Assembly: GCA_016188575.1 (NCBI GenBank) | Contig: JACPHN010000082.1 | Span: 1-64,000 of the forward strand | Direction: 5' to 3' | DNA from: Candidatus Schekmanbacteria bacterium | GTDB taxonomy: Bacteria > CSSED10-310 > JACPHN01 | DNA length: 64,000 nucleotides | Part shown: positions 7,601 through 22,736 of the stretch, piece after piece | Layout: each line of letters opens with the position of its first letter | Position numbering within the stretch: position 1 is the first letter of the stretch | Position numbers and translations under genes: made by a program | Notes under the pieces: generated by a model | Told to the model about the DNA's origin: nothing | Seen by the model: the letters and a program-made list of their open reading frames with translations, nothing else | Database searches by the model: none

Positions 7601-10005
7601 GAGTCGGTGATCGTGACGGCGTTGGAGTTTCCCGCCAGGTCCGTTCCGTTGGCGGCGGTGCCGAAGAGGTTGCCCTCGACGGTGTTGTCGTCGCTCTGGT
7701 ATCTGATTTCGATGCCGGCGCTGGTGCTCGCCGAGATCAGGTTGCACGGGCCGGTGCAGGACGCTCCAGCCGGCCGGTCGCCGCCGATGCTGTGCGAGGT
7801 GGGCACGTCGGGATGTCCGCTCACCCTGATGCCGTAGTAGTTGCCCAGCGCCGCCGTCCCCTCCGCATTGGTGCCGATGCGGTTGCCCTGGATCTTGGCC
7901 CCGCTCCCATCGTGGAGCGAGATGCCCGCAAAGCCGCTTGCCGCGATGACGTTGCCTTCGCCGGTCCCGGTGCCCCCGATCTGGGCGTTGGTGGGCAGCG
8001 CGAGCGAGATGCCACTGCTGCTGTTGCCCAGGCCCTGCTTGCCGGTGACGTCGGTGCCGATGTAGTTGCCCAGCACCTTCGTTCCGGTGGTGTTGGACTT
8101 CGTGCAGATGCCGCAGGTGTTGCCCGAGATGAGGTTGCGCGCTGCCGCGGTGGTACCGCCGACGACCACGTTGGCCGAGTCGAACATGATGAATACTCCG
8201 CCGTGGTCGTTGCTCATGCCGACGGTCCCGGTGTAGTCGGTCCCCGAGTAGGAGCCCTCGAGGATGCTGTCGCTGCTCAGGAAGACCCCCTCGTACTTCG
8301 CGGTCTCGTTGAAGACCAGGCCGCGGGCCACACCGCCGTCGACGTCCAGGCCGTAGTAGGTGCCGGGGAAGCGGATCTCGACGATCGGCTGGTCCTGGAA
8401 ACCGGGTTGCGTGGTGCCGTCGAAGACCAGACCGGTGTCGGACGACGAGAGCTGGGAATCGACGCGGATGATCTGATGCCCGGAGGCGATCCGGAAGTCG
8501 ATCTCGTCGGTGCCCGAGCTCTGGCTGGCTTCCATGATGGCGGCGCGCAGCGTGCAGATGCCGCTCGGGGGAACAGGGGGAGTGGCCTGGGGATCGTAGG
8601 CGGTGTCGCAGAGGTTCTGGTCGTCGCCGGGGCGGGCGTCGGGCGCGTCACCGACGTCATTGACGTCGAAGGTGAAGGTTGCCGCGGTCAGTGCCACGGC
8701 GGGGGCGGTGCGGTCCTGCTGGAGGACGACGAGGTCGCTGCGGTTATCGATGTTGAGGCGCATCGGCAGGACGGCGGCGGGCTCGCCGGCGAGGTCGAGC
8801 GAGGCGGCCAAGCCAAGCTGCCGGTGTTCAGCGGCTTCCAGCACCTGCAGGCTCCCGCCGGCGGGGTCGAGCAGCACGAGCTCCTCGCCGTGCCGGGCGG
8901 TGAGGCGCGTCGCGACCAGGCGCGCGGCGCCGGGAGCGGCGGGGTCGCGGGCGGGGGCGAGCGCCGCGGAGGTGGTGGCTAGCGTCCAGGCGCCGGAGGC
9001 GGACCGCTCGAGCACCCGGACCGCCCCGTCAGAGCCGAGCACGGCGAGCTCCCTGCGCAGAGGTCCCGCGGCGGGGAGGAAGTCGCCGCCAAGAACGCTG
9101 GCGGCGGGGCACGGCAGCGTCGCGACGGAAGCGAGCGCCGGCACAAAGTCCGGCCTGAGCCGGTTGCGGTCCCACCCGCGCAGCACGAGGACCTGGGCCC
9201 CCGCCGTGGCGGCCAGGTCGATCCACGGGTCGTCGTCGAGCGACCCGAGCCACAGCGAGGTCGCCGGCCACGGCAGCGGCACGGCGAGAGGCGCGGCGCG
9301 GACAGCGGCCCCCAGCCCCGAAAAGACGAGCAGGCGTGGGCCGCCCGGTCCGTCGACTGCCGCGATCACGGCGAGGCGCCCGTCGAAGCGCCCGAGCTCG
9401 CCGACCGCCAGAGCGGTGAGGGCGCCGCCGCCCAGGTCGATGGCGACCGGGGCTCCAAAACCGCCCCGGCCGTCTCCGCCGAGCAGCCACAGGCGCGTGC
9501 TGCCGATCGCGCCGGCGATCACGTCGGGGTGGCCGTCCGCATCGAGGTCGCCGGCACCCAGCGTGTCCGGAGCCTCGGGGAGCGCGACCACCGGGGCGTC
9601 GGGCAGAAAGGCCGCGTCAACCGCGTGCCCGGCCCCCCGCCGCTGCTGCGCCGCCACCGTGTGCGGGAAGAGCAGGTCGACGTTGCCCCGGTGGAGGCTG
9701 AGCGCGCCGCCAGCGTCCAGCGCGTAACCGGCGACCACGTCGGGCATGCCGTCCTCGTCGAGGTCGGCCGAAGCCAGGGCGAGCGGCCGGGTCCGGCCCG
9801 CTGCCAGCGCATCGAGCAGCTCCGGCGGGCCGCCGTAGCGGGCAGGCAGGTCAACGCCGTCGCGCAGATTCAGCTCCGGGCCGCCCCGGCCGGCGGCGTG
9901 CACCGGCGGAGCCTCCCCGGCTGCCGCCGCGGGCGATACCGCAGCGATCGCCCAGGAGACCATGATGGCGACGAGACCCTGCCCAGCACCGCGCGAACCC
10001 CACAT
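4651..10005 (-). CDS. Giant secreted FG-GAP/CSLREA/beta-helix metalloprotease, C-terminally anchored
   Basis: 1784 aa. ATG 10005 has GGGAG upstream and a signal peptide ending near AAAAG. Domain order: FG-GAP/VCBS repeats (about 60-430, e.g. DLDEDGMPDVVAG), a CSLREA-like segment (about 455-500, CTLRAAIMEAS), a right-handed parallel beta-helix (about 510-870), Ig/CARDB-like modules, and a zincin domain with HELGHNFSLRH (H1240, E1241, H1244, H1250). The latter is the HExxHxxxxxH metzincin zinc site. Fn3-like and BACON-like modules follow, then a C-terminal helix and RRRRRGR tail. FG-GAP domains bind Ca2+ and partners; the beta-helix suggests glycan or surface binding, with the protease as the active centre. 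The zinc ligands look intact. The substrate is unknown. Confidence 0.85.
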   Translation of the reverse strand: MWGSRGAGQGLVAIMVSWAIAAVSPAAAAGEAPPVHAAGRGGPELNLRDGVDLPARYGGPPELLDALAAGRTRPLALASADLDEDGMPDVVAGYALDAGGALSLHRGNVDLLFPHTVAAQQRRGAGHAVDAAFLPDAPVVALPEAPDTLGAGDLDADGHPDVIAGAIGSTRLWLLGGDGRGGFGAPVAIDLGGGALTALAVGELGRFDGRLAVIAAVDGPGGPRLLVFSGLGAAVRAAPLAVPLPWPATSLWLGSLDDDPWIDLAATAGAQVLVLRGWDRNRLRPDFVPALASVATLPCPAASVLGGDFLPAAGPLRRELAVLGSDGAVRVLERSASGAWTLATTSAALAPARDPAAPGAARLVATRLTARHGEELVLLDPAGGSLQVLEAAEHRQLGLAASLDLAGEPAAVLPMRLNIDNRSDLVVLQQDRTAPAVALTAATFTFDVNDVGDAPDARPGDDQNLCDTAYDPQATPPVPPSGICTLRAAIMEASQSSGTDEIDFRIASGHQIIRVDSQLSSSDTGLVFDGTTQPGFQDQPIVEIRFPGTYYGLDVDGGVARGLVFNETAKYEGVFLSSDSILEGSYSGTDYTGTVGMSNDHGGVFIMFDSANVVVGGTTAAARNLISGNTCGICTKSNTTGTKVLGNYIGTDVTGKQGLGNSSSGISLALPTNAQIGGTGTGEGNVIAASGFAGISLHDGSGAKIQGNRIGTNAEGTAALGNYYGIRVSGHPDVPTSHSIGGDRPAGASCTGPCNLISASTSAGIEIRYQSDDNTVEGNLFGTAANGTDLAGNSNAVTITDSKDNTIGGKRAAGAYCTGVCNVIANSTSSGIIVQTGTGNAILGNEIRDNGRTGIDLGNYDGITANDPDDPDTGPNDLQNFPTVDFDPNGGELRVNLQGKPNATFRVEVFSNTECEGTGQGRTLVGARDGVTTDAEGNASFTFTPGGSAQFYSATATDAANNTSELTPCPLDLNGIEVTQAIQNWDNAVPLIEGRPTAVRVHLRSPEEDVSGVYAELLVKSGETTLRTLVPSNSPRTITVLAQPWRGSISDGFYFDIPTSCSECLTGTVTFEVRSGASHSFACQEPKGGNDTSQGSDCKVTLTFEPSPAPLVFFRDVVWSASPTGPVYAPALTDYLQVQRYIEAQLPVPRLNAVKLPVPLLWPLFGAPVPFQVDLLQIAGYSLSLLRFSPTAILHSVIVGEAPGGQLGDGSLGLFDLPQYLLVGRISTAYGLAGPYVAPHELGHNFSLRHRYCFEPKGPKPDNFVPPEYNCRIGPEPSGFDDPTAFYGFDVRELNSEAKVKLWNVYDLMGYQGELRWIQDVEYKAAHDYIVQNLRGAEWPATPIEQRAPQQVLLVAGSVDPSLDTGQIGLFYELEAPELPESPPSGAYAVRLEDSSGTALASYSFDPIPLADGSNRLFSLIVPPPAGLARVVLLHDGKELDVRTPSDNSPSVGVPSPVVGDGADGVLQLSWTASDPDGDSLRFLVEYSADGGETWELLTLEWTATTLEVPLALLPGTGQGAVRVYATDGFHTVMGQTAATFAVPTHAPQAKILAPVDDSCPSSNQLARLEGGAFDPEDGVLPDAALSWSSGKSGVLGTGAMLEVDGISFSWPDTITLTATDSESRTASASITVNPESGCVGEHDLTAAPLALGFQAAPGGPSPASLELALRKLGWGTELAWTATADQLWIQLGAASGTTPGNLTVTVDSTGKAEGIYSGTITVTAAQASMGSPRTINVELQVSSASALPLPIGAPALLALAVGAVIAIAVVRRRRRGRVRCGAA

Positions 10006-10638
10006 GATACACTTTCTCCCTGCCGAGCTGCGGAAACGGGTCGCGGCCCGCCGGCGTCGCTCGATCGCACCCTTACGAACAACCGTGAATCCTGTGCTAC
10101 ACCAGCGCCAGGAACACCTCCGATACCTTCGCGTCCTGCCTTCCGAACCATTGCCCGCCGGGCATGATCCTAACCTTGGTCAACTGCGCGGTCAAGTCCC
10201 AGATGGCACCGGAGAGCTTCTTGGTCGCCTGCTGCGCGCGCTGCCCCAGCACCGCGCTCACCCCATTGGCCAGTTTCCGCACGATGTGGAACATGGGTTG
10301 GTCAGGAACACGCGGCCACCACTCCCCCGCATGACCAGCCCGCGCGTCGCGGACAATGACCAGCCCAGCATCGAGCTGGCGCCGGGCAAAGCTCGGTTGT
10401 TCCGCCGCGCTGATTCGCGCAGCAGAACAACCGGGTGCAGCGGACAGCGCCCTTCGGTAGTAAGCTACTTCCGGGAGCTGCCGCTGACCCGGCGCCCGTC
10501 AGGGCTCCAGCGGCCACCAGAAAATTGTCGGAAGGTGAATGGATATTCGCTTCTACCGTGATCCAGCACCTGGCGATACGAGTTGCGGGATAAGCCGCTG
10601 ACCGCATATCGACGGCGGCAGCGCCGGAAAGGACAGCG
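10006..10638. other. Divergent intergenic region between two giant protease genes
   Basis: 633 bp separate the divergently transcribed metalloprotease and caspase-like genes, so both promoters should lie here. I cannot pick a convincing -35/-10 pair. A minus-strand open frame ending at 10097 and reaching back to about 10464 (fragment QPMFHIVRKLANGVSAVLG) looks like a relic of a gene, possibly a transposase, but it has no recognisable family and no good start. Confidence 0.4.
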
Positions 10639-19016: not shown

Positions 19017-19084
19017 CTGTCGGCGGCTTGCGCCGCGCGGACGGCCGGAGCATACTGGGTGGAGAGGCGAACCGGAGGATGCCG

Positions 19085-21768
19085 ATGACGCGTCGCTTCT
19101 CTCTCTCTCTCTCTTGCTAGTCGCGGTCGCCACCGTGGCTGCCGCCGCGGGTGACTCCTTCGAGAGCGGCACCACGACGGCGCTGCCATGGCACCTTGCC
19201 CCGGAAGGCGGCTGGGGAGTCGAGACGGGAGACGCCGCCGACGGCGCCTACGCCGCTCGCACCGCGCCGCTCGCTGGCGGCGCCACTGCCATCCTCGAGG
19301 TGACGCTCGAGATCGAAACCACCGGGGAGGTATCGTTTTGGCTGACGACCTCCACCGAGAGCGACCGCGACGAGCTCGTGTTCTGGATCGCCGGCAGCTC
19401 CGGGCAGGCGTACGAGAAGGGCCGCTGGTCGGGGGAGCGGCCGTGGGAGCAGGTGGCGTACCGGGTCTCGGCCGGGGTGTGGACCTTCCGCTGGGGCTAC
19501 GTCAAGGATGCCGCGGGGGCGGCGGGCGCAGACCGGGTGGGGCTCGATGCCGTCGATTTCCCGCCGTTTTCTCTGGCGCCGACGGCGACGGTGACGGCCA
19601 CCGCGACCCCGTCTCCGACGCGGACCGCGACCCGCACCGCCACGGTGAGCTCCACGCCGACGGAGACGGCGACCGCCACGCCGACCGAGACGCCGGGCGA
19701 CGTCGGGCCGCCATCGCCGACCGCCAACCCGTCCGCGCCCCCGAGCCCGTCGCCCGCCGCCAGCCCGACGGGTACCAGCACACCGGCGTCGACCGCCACG
19801 TCTTCGGCGCCGGCGAGTCCCACCCCCGGCGCGGTGGACTGCCCGCCGGACGCCCTGATCGCACCGGGCGAGCGGAGCGCGGGTGGGGGCGCCTCCCCGA
19901 CCGCCGTGCCGGCGTTGGCGCTGTGGTTGGCCTCGGCCGCGCGACTGGCGATCGGGCTCGACTGGGATGGCTACGAGGGAGCGGGGTTTGTCGCCTACGA
20001 GCTTGGCGGAGACGTGGAGAGCGCGGTGACGACGCCGGAGGACGGAAGGACGTACCGGATGTGGTTTTACGCGGGCAAGCCGGCGCGGTTTGTCGCGCAT
20101 TTCGAGCGCGACCGCCCCAACGCCCTCTTCGGGGTGGCGGATCCCGATGGGATCGGTCCCGGCAACGGCACGCTCGTGGTGGTGCGCACGCAGGAGCCGG
20201 ACGGCTCCCGCTCTCATGAGTGCTACACCTTCGCGGACTTTCCCCAGGGCGCGGGCTTCGGCGCGCAGCTCGAAGCGGACCGCTCGCTGCCGGGGTTCTC
20301 CGGTGAGTCGACGGTGACGACCCCCGGAGGCGGTCGCACCGGCGCGACCGCCACGGTGACCACCCGGGCGCGGGTGCGGGCCGCCTGGCGGGCCTGGCTG
20401 CAAAACGCTCCGCCCGCAGCTTATCTCCCGCAAGGCGACATCGCCAACCCGGGCACGCTTGCCGGAAGCACCCTGAGCTTCGGCATCGCCGCGAAGCCGA
20501 ACTGGGCGTCGAGCGCGGCCAGGCTCGAGCTCGCCCTCGCCACGAGTCGCTTCCCCGGCATTGCAACCAACTGGCCACGCGGGTCGGTTCCCGCAACCGA
20601 GAACGACATGAGCTACACGCTGCTCACCGCGGGCGCGCAGACCACGAGCGCGACGACGACCCCGTGGGCCGCGCCGTGGGTCTCCCCGTTCGCCGCCGGC
20701 GTGCACTCGCTCTTCAACGACGGCCGCACCGCCTACTGGACGGCCAGATACGACCACGCCGCGCCGCGCAACCCGTACGGAGTCGTCCGATTCGCGGCGC
20801 AATCCACCGACTTTGGCGCCAAGGCCTTCTTCGCCGCGCGCTGGACCCCGGACTATGCGACGACCCCAATCCCCATCGGCCTCGACCGCGTCGCGCCGCC
20901 GGTCACCGACGCGGACAAGGTGACGCAGATCCCCTACACCCGCCCGGGCGAGGCGATCCCCGACGGCAACTGGGTGACGCTGCCGCAGGATTCCCGGCGC
21001 CTGGCGGTCGATCCGCTCGCCGACAACGATAGTGACGCTTACCCGGAAAACCTCCACCCCGGCGACGGCCTGCTCGCCTACGACGAATTCCGCGGCTTTG
21101 TCTTCGGCGGCGACCACGTCAGCTTGCCGCCGCATGTCCGCAGCGACCCGCTCAGGAAGGACCTCTTTCTTCTGAACCGAAAGAGCCTCGATAAGCACTA
21201 CTCGGCCTACGGTGCCGCCACCGGGGTGCTCGTGCACCCGTGGGTGTTTCCTGATGACATGCTGGGCTATGTGCTGGACTATCACGCCCCGATGACGCCG
21301 AACCGCGCCACCCCCGGCGCGGGCGAGCAGCGAGCCATGATCACAAGCTTCAGGGACGACTGCGAGAAGAAATTCGCCTGGGGCCAGACCCAGGCATTCG
21401 GCACCCCCTCGAGGGTCCGCCCCTTGCTGGCGACCGACTGCATCGCCAAGGACATGCCGAGTGCGCCCACGGGCCTGGTAGAGGCCGTCGCCCGCAACGT
21501 CATGGCTCACGAAATGCTGCACGCGAGCAGTCTGAACGAGCACGGCAATCCCGACGCATGCGCGCCAGACGACGTGCCGTGCCTCCTCCAAGAAAAGGCC
21601 AAAGGTGCGCCCTGCGTCTTGAAGGCACCCATCTGGGACATCTACCAGGCGGTCAATGCCTGGGGCACGCCGGACTACTCCAACGTGACGATCTTCACCA
21701 AGCTCTGCGGCCCGGGCACGGTCGACGAGGACAGTCTGGGCTTCAACATCAAGGACTGGACACCATGA
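19085..21768 (+). CDS. Secreted zinc-metalloprotease-like protein, start out of frame across (CT)8
   Basis: The main frame (19003-21768) encodes a signal-peptide core (LLLVAVATVAAAAG), an N-terminal beta domain, a long Thr/Ala/Pro linker (TATATPSPTRTATRT type) and a large C-terminal region. That region ends with AHEMLHASSLNEH, a zincin HExxH (His near residue 836 of the open frame). The only good start, ATG 19085 with GGAGG 6 nt upstream, begins MTRRFSLSLS but hits TAG at 19118. Removing one CT unit would join it in frame to the signal peptide. The alternative start at 19003 gives an unlikely Cys/Arg-rich leader. The gene is therefore either phase-OFF or carries an indel. It is coupled to the next gene by ATGA. 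Confidence 0.7.
19099..19114 (+). repeat. (CT)8 dinucleotide tract in a signal-peptide coding region
   Basis: Eight CT units lie 14 nt after ATG 19085, inside the stretch coding for the signal peptide h-region. With eight units the frame stops at 19118-19120; with seven units it continues into the 2.7-kb gene. Such tracts mutate by slipped-strand mispairing. Confidence 0.75.
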
Positions 21769-22736
21769 AGACCTCGCGCGCGATCTCGTCTCTCCTCGCT
21801 CTGGGCCTGGTCGCCGGTTCCCCCGCCGTCGCCCAGGAAGGCACCCCGGTGGCGTCGAAGCACATCCGGTTGTCGATGGGCACGCATGGCTATTACTGCC
21901 ATGAGCTCGGGTCCTTTTTCAGGCCATTCGACAGACTGGAGAAACAATGCCCGATGCCACGAGGAGTGCGGCTGCGGTTCGACATCCAAGTCAGTAGCAA
22001 GCATCCACACAGCCACCCCCAATCGCTACCCCATGCACAGCACCTGCACTACCTGGAAACCGGCGAGCTTCCGGAGGGCTACCCGATCGTCATCTTCACG
22101 CGCCAGTGGATCGAATCCATCTCCTGCACCCTGCAGAGCGAGAAGGGGGTGCGGACTCCCCTCGACTGGCGGCCCTACCTGCGCTGGGAGGTGCACGACC
22201 GCTATCGATTCCCCCTCGGCGGACCGGGAAACGAGGACTCACCGGGCTTTGACGTCATCGTCCCCGGCGAGCTGACCGAGAAGCTGGATCTGGGCTTCTA
22301 CGACCTCGATTGCTCGGCAACCTGGACCGACGGCGGCATCGTCACGGGGCATACCGGGTTCTGGGTGTGTAATCGCGACACGCCGTTCGCCCGCGCGCTG
22401 TGGGCGCGCGACCAGGCCGATGGGGAGCAGCTCCCAGCGAAGCAGCTCGAGTGGTACCTGAAGGCGATCGAGGAGGATCCGGAAACCCCTGGCCCCTACG
22501 AGCATGCCGCCGAGATCGCGGAGCATAGCTTGAAGCGCTACGACCTCGCGGCTGATCTCCTCGAGCGGTATCTCGAGAAGCTGCGCAAGAAGGTCGAGCA
22601 GGTCGCCCCGGGCTACGAGCCGCGCCCCTCGATGGGCCCACACTACCCCGCGTTCGACCCCAAGGCTCGGCTTGCCGAGGTCGAGCAGCACACCCAGGCG
22701 AGGATCGCCCGACTCCGCAGCAAAAAGGGCGGGTAG
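21765..22736 (+). CDS. Exported protein of unknown function with C-terminal TPR-like helices
   Basis: 323 aa. The start overlaps the previous stop (ATGA), so it is translationally coupled to the metalloprotease-like gene. A clean Sec signal peptide (MKTSRAISSLLALGLVAGSPAVAQ) precedes a beta-rich region with several Cys and His residues (HPHSHPQSLPHAQHLHYLE). A helical C-terminal part (EWYLKAIEEDPETPGPYEHA..LLERYLEKL) resembles TPR units. I do not recognise the central domain. Coupling suggests that it acts with, or processes or protects against, the upstream secreted protease. Confidence 0.6.
   Translation: MKTSRAISSLLALGLVAGSPAVAQEGTPVASKHIRLSMGTHGYYCHELGSFFRPFDRLEKQCPMPRGVRLRFDIQVSSKHPHSHPQSLPHAQHLHYLETGELPEGYPIVIFTRQWIESISCTLQSEKGVRTPLDWRPYLRWEVHDRYRFPLGGPGNEDSPGFDVIVPGELTEKLDLGFYDLDCSATWTDGGIVTGHTGFWVCNRDTPFARALWARDQADGEQLPAKQLEWYLKAIEEDPETPGPYEHAAEIAEHSLKRYDLAADLLERYLEKLRKKVEQVAPGYEPRPSMGPHYPAFDPKARLAEVEQHTQARIARLRSKKGG

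Follow-up and report, generated by a model that had tools for sequence, protein, structure and literature searches.

Layout of the locus

The 64,000-nucleotide stretch of DNA analyzed here (G000:C195:1-64000; hereafter, the window) belongs to a 9.2-Mb draft genome (275 contigs, 68% GC) of a Candidatus Schekmanbacteria bacterium. At a site 19 kb inside a 117-kb contig, the window contains a gene for a large, predicted secreted protein in which a (CT)8 tract, located in the hydrophobic core (h-region) of the signal peptide, leaves a well-formed start codon out of frame with the rest of the coding sequence (hereafter, the body), a frame of ~2.6 kb without a usable start. A first-pass annotation had suggested that this tract is a candidate phase-variable switch of a secreted metalloprotease. 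The features of the locus are as follows:

19028..19033, + strand: putative -35 element TTGCGC, aligned as CTTGCG(C/T) in nearly all 29 loci of the family described below, 17-18 bp from a -10-like hexamer
19051..19056, + strand: putative -10 element CATACT after a 17-bp spacer; CACAAT, TAGCAT or similar in other subgroups of the family; function predicted from the consensus
19074..19078, + strand: Shine-Dalgarno (SD) sequence GGAGG, six bases before ATG 19085-19087; kept across the family
19085..19120, + strand: short open reading frame (ORF) MTRRFSLSLSC* from the out-of-frame start, the assembled OFF state; stop TAG 19118-19120
19099..19114, + strand: (CT)8 within the h-region of the signal peptide; proposed slippage switch; can be read equally as (TC)8 at 19098-19113
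19115..19152, + strand: signal-peptide remainder, encoded in the body frame, LLVAVATVAAAAG
19153..19569, + strand: conserved N-terminal domain DSFESG...VDFP, probably beta-rich; present at 30+ places in the genome; no Pfam match
19570..19850, + strand: Thr/Pro-rich linker, from the translation
19978..21765, + strand: C-terminal region with HEMLH at 21508-21522, putative metallopeptidase
21765..22736, + strand: next gene, MKTSRAISSLLALGLVAGSPAVAQ..., with an N-terminus predicted to be secreted; its start overlaps the preceding stop as ATGA

Every coordinate given in the first-pass annotation agrees with our reading. The tract occupies codons 5-10 counted from ATG 19085, that is, the 5' coding region, and, with eight units, exceeds by one, or falls two short of, a unit count that would fuse this start to the body. 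Removal of one unit joins ATG 19085 to ...LLLVAVATVAAAAG and the body, replacing the present 11 codons with 871 open codons that extend to TGA 21766-21768, as had been claimed for seven units, and the addition of two units (n=10) produces the same fusion. Thus, the frame that is reached by a change in the number of units is otherwise intact. An in-frame upstream start, use of which the annotation had named as part of what would speak against a switch, exists mechanically only as TTG 19003; this candidate was rejected because it lies 5' of the conserved promoter and outside the segment common to the window and its paralogs, which starts near 19025.

A family of modules with CT tracts

At least 29 loci in this genome share the same 5' module, which consists of a promoter, predicted from its consensus to be sigma-70-like, a strong SD sequence, an ATG, a basic n-region, a CT tract in the core of the signal peptide and a conserved secreted domain. 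A search with the 5' segment yielded seven near-identical modules besides that in the window, and a protein search of the genome yielded 13 further places; this census is a lower bound given that many contigs break inside the gene family, and more copies may exist. The signal peptides fall into four subgroups, namely MPMTQRVASLSL..., MPRRVMSLSL..., MSWRVPSLSL... (including MWWR) and MSRRLNSLSL..., and the presence of these signal peptides suggests that the products are secreted. The bodies start with a ~140-residue domain with the N-terminal signature (D/E)SFE(S/T/A)G, followed by the Thr/Pro linker and then by C-terminal parts of at least two kinds. The modules are not strain duplicates of one locus: their upstream flanks differ, indicating that these are separate loci. 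An alternative start in the body frame was rejected for the copies C45, C271, C133, C93 and C205b, where a TGA overlaps the ATG and no later start is present. We found no relatives of this family in the GTDB species genomes searched or among the phylum's 7 other genomes; weak matches elsewhere (G058 and others) fall in the Thr/Pro linker or in the domain at the N-terminus.

Family copies are located at the ends of contigs C37, C44, C45, C68, C77, C93, C123, C127, C133, C153, C180, C189, C205, C232, C258 and C271. Mixed tracts are found at the signal-peptide position in C14, with (TG)n preceding (CT)n in one case (L148, minus strand, contig start) and (GT)4 coming after (CT)5 in the other (L109, contig end), which suggests conversion between repeat types. 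C96 and C260 encode the domain of the window protein and carry poly-G tracts in the signal peptides.

The CT tracts of this length are not a product of chance. Tracts of seven or more units occur at 16 places in the genome, of which 14 are within the module, and (CT)8 can be found at 14 places, whereas 0.07 (CT)7 and 0.005 (CT)8 per genome are expected by chance under a first-order Markov model with the window composition, for both strands of the 9.2 Mb. No (CT)8 was detected in ten other genomes (~47 Mb in total) or in any of the 7 further genomes that represent the phylum. Overall, (CT)8 is present in 19 of the 290 genomes searched, including this one, and absent from 271; some others among the 19 also carry more than one tract, and this genome therefore ranks among those richest in (CT)8, its top rank being unproved. 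Other dinucleotide repeats in the genome include (CA)7 at one place and (CG)8 at two. Most of the 29 loci have a CT run of their own, and across the paralogs (not orthologs), the tract length ranges from n = 1 to n = 13. The tract is read as TCT and CTC codons, and because TCT accounts for only 1.9% of the Ser codons in the sampled genes, the tract is kept as a DNA repeat, against codon use; it appears that the repetition itself is maintained.

Phase of the family members and constraint on the bodies

We read the state of each member with a readable body from the distance between the ATG and the body, with C143 added by hand; C77a was scored OFF because an extra base follows its in-frame signal peptide, and C205a, which ends at a contig edge, was left out. 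None of the 16 readable members with n>=6 is ON: 14 are one unit short, and two, the window locus and C68, have one unit too many. If the loci are independent, the probability of finding none ON is (2/3)^16 = 0.0015. The one-unit-short phase spans subgroups that differ in indels and in the length of the tract, as in C118 (n=6), C189 (n=9) and C180 (n=11 together with a 1-nt deletion). Among the members with n<6, 7 are ON and 5 are OFF; of the ON copies, C67 and C4 have a lesion in the body soon after the tract. Full-length ON members include C162 (1130 codons) and C211 (1093 codons).

The OFF copies are not dead but are under purifying selection. For the domain common to the family, the ratio of nonsynonymous to synonymous substitution rates (dN/dS) is 0.17 between the window protein and C133, both of which are OFF, and is in the range of 0.17-0.46 for most of the longer pairs, with a greater scatter among short pairs. 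The bodies remain open over 871 codons in the window, 1086 codons in C143 after (CT)13, also in the OFF state, and at least 569 codons in C133. Gene conversion between the copies could add to the low dN/dS but alone would not hold the frames open.

A proposed slipped-strand switch and its alternatives

Very probably, the (CT)8 tract in the window is a slipped-strand contingency switch, one of a repertoire of at least 29 such loci. The proposal of the first-pass annotation, a candidate switch in the core of a signal peptide, is strongly supported by the number of loci, their differing tract lengths, the constrained bodies and other contingency-type repeats in the same genome, among them the tract of a type III mod gene (see below). 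Gain or loss of CT units at replication would bring ATG 19085 in frame with the large secreted protein or shift it out again. With eight units, translation would stop after 11 codons (OFF), and with seven or ten, the whole signal peptide and the full protein would be made; both slippage of the tract in living cells and control of expression by the frame are deduced here from the arrangement of the locus. The repertoire would comprise exported proteins that have the N-terminal domain in common and carry C-terminal parts of two or more kinds; the loci would switch independently of one another, with most of them OFF in the population that was sequenced. This arrangement strongly suggests that the bacterium maintains surface or secreted proteins as a set whose members are switched randomly on and off, conceivably, generating diversity of exported proteins against phage, predators, the host or competitors.

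Several observations weigh against this interpretation. Free switching predicts that about one third of the loci would be ON, yet none is among the 16 with long tracts, and nearly all of these share one OFF phase, a strong skew that calls for a further cause. Furthermore, differences in tract length are known only between paralogs of a single assembly. Other lesions are present in some members (a stop in C67 and C73, a frameshift in C4 and C77a), so that decay has affected a portion of the family. The genome also encodes MutS, although mismatch repair does not exclude slippage. The skew could arise if the ON state is selected against and gain of units is more common than loss, in which case lineages would accumulate one unit short; in a three-state model, again if ON is selected against, the ratio of the phases would be the square root of the gain to loss ratio.

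The same skew would follow from an alternative that we regard as improbable, namely, that long tracts are decoded by programmed slippage, either by the ribosome shifting by -2 when tRNAs re-pair perfectly in the repeat or by RNA polymerase adding a unit, so that one unit short is the working state. This would account for the concentration of long-tract members from all four subgroups in one phase, for short-tract members that are often plainly in frame and for the constraint on the bodies. Equally improbable, in our estimate, is the corollary that the one-unit-short phase is itself selected, with seemingly OFF alleles giving a small, stochastic output of a whole family of exported proteins. 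However, C68 and the window locus do not share this phase, and slippage biased towards expansion combined with selection against ON gives the same skew; in addition, -2 slippage on CU repeats is not known as a routine means of expression, which counts against this mechanism.

Somewhat less probable still is a dead or dying gene family, a set of pseudogenes in which the tracts have undergone neutral expansion. The further lesions in several copies, and the lack of any long-tract copy in frame, would fit such decay, but dN/dS is ~0.2 between OFF copies, the bodies of the window locus, C143 and C133 are intact over the lengths given above, the promoter and SD sequence are conserved, and the tract is kept against codon use. 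Finally, an error of sequencing or assembly that conceals a gene really in frame is very improbable even for a fragmented draft with many family copies at contig ends, the least reliable places for assembly, because random error would leave about one third of the loci in frame, because errors do not give independent loci long CT tracts at the same homologous position, and because the window locus lies well inside its contig.

Protein products and the downstream gene

The window protein has no Pfam or NCBIfam family match, and a search for sequence matches in the PDB produced only weak matches to antibody chains, which we discarded. A single-sequence AlphaFold model of the N-terminal domain consists mostly of strands, with a low-confidence mean predicted local distance difference test (pLDDT) score of 54, and the model of the C-terminal region (pLDDT 31) is uninformative. 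The assignment as a metalloprotease in the first-pass annotation has its basis in HEMLH at 21508-21522; the activity is a guess from this one HExxH motif, and we accordingly denote the C-terminal region a putative metallopeptidase. The sequence HE(M/L)LHASS is kept in the window, C176, C125, C214 and C73 and is lost in C226.

The overlap with the next gene is real (ATG 21765, TGA 21766-21768), so the coupling geometry noted in the annotation holds, and joint switching of this gene through the ATGA overlap is plausible. The gene also has its own AAGGA ~9 bases upstream, and its product has no Pfam or NCBIfam match.

Other contingency-type repeats in the genome

An (AG)8 tract in C194 (G000:C194, 39191-39206; L105:2253-4170) splits a type III DNA methyltransferase gene into 508 codons on the 5' side and 153 codons on the 3' side in the +1 frame. 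The methyltransferase matches PF01555 (1.9e-34) and the PADLOC MTase_III model (2.2e-185 over residues 8-488) and is flanked by a helicase-like ORF and genes for a DUF4391 protein and a RhuM family protein; it is a candidate phasevarion in the same genome. In C86, (AG)13 directly follows ATGAGTATCATG at ~9974-9999 (L255:1460-2155), in an ORF of ~230 codons that is in frame and has no Pfam match. In C58, (CA)10 at 10390-10409 (L258) breaks the frame of a gene that by eye resembles the cysteine-desulfurase type.

Genes for secreted proteins carry poly-G tracts of 10 to 12 residues within or close to the signal-peptide or N-terminal coding region in C96 (L247), C260 (L145), C144 (two genes; L150/L254), C141 (L253), and C139, C74 and C111 (L251/L243/L249), and these genes are mostly out of frame as assembled. 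Two further poly-G tracts lie between promoter elements, with an SD sequence and ATG downstream: G10 between TTGACA and TACAAT with a 20-bp spacer in C140 (G000:C140:21293; L252, ~780-830), and G12 between TTGACA and TGATAT with a 17-bp spacer in C81 (G000:C81:5338; L245, minus strand, ~945-975). Judging from the sequence, these are probably promoter switches of the porA/fetA type. Repeats in a mod gene, in signal peptides and in promoter spacers all represent types well established for contingency loci. Poly-G tracts of ten are also present in most of the comparison genomes and, therefore, prove little on their own.

Comparison with known systems

The best-documented cases of phase variation driven by repeats come from host-adapted bacteria with small genomes. 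The genome described here, by comparison, measures 9.2 Mb with 68% GC, belongs to a sparsely sampled phylum and has no fewer than 29 loci that use a single, putatively switchable signal-peptide module, along with contingency-type repeats in a methyltransferase gene and in promoters. If confirmed, this would suggest strong diversifying pressure on the lineage from phage, predators, a host or competitors, and the ~16 parallel tracts would allow slippage rates, direction bias and selection on the ON and OFF states to be measured from metagenome reads.

Two kinds of repeat loci outside the family resemble known switches. A phase-variable type III mod gene of Mycoplasma mycoides contains (AG)12 (PMC3498834), similar to the (AG)8-containing mod gene in C194, which is a locus separate from the window switch and, unlike the Mycoplasma gene, has a helicase-like ORF and a DUF4391 protein as partners. 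In the fetA and porA promoters of Neisseria, a homopolymer is located between the -35 and -10 elements (PMC5320596), an arrangement apparently shared by C140 and C81, likewise separate from the window locus.

The closest parallels to the window locus itself are two families of outer-membrane proteins. The Helicobacter hop genes switch by slipped-strand mispairing in the tract (PMC3960876) and, as with hopZ, oipA/hopH, sabA and babA of H. pylori, several switched genes coexist in one genome. The Hop proteins are outer-membrane proteins of a small-genome pathogen, whereas the proteins described here are predicted to be secreted, carry a putative peptidase or another C-terminal part, and are encoded at no fewer than 29 loci derived from one module in a large, GC-rich genome of another phylum. 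Neisseria gonorrhoeae has 11-12 opa paralogs, each with its own repeat tract and turned on or off by frame (PMC5320596); the opa repeat is the pentamer CTTCT rather than a CT dinucleotide, and the window protein shows no Pfam match that would suggest kinship with Opa or Hop. Thus, the window locus appears to work like the hop and opa genes and belongs to neither family. The best reading is that the type of switch, slipped-strand phase variation, is known and the protein family it controls is new, in a phylum represented by 8 genomes.
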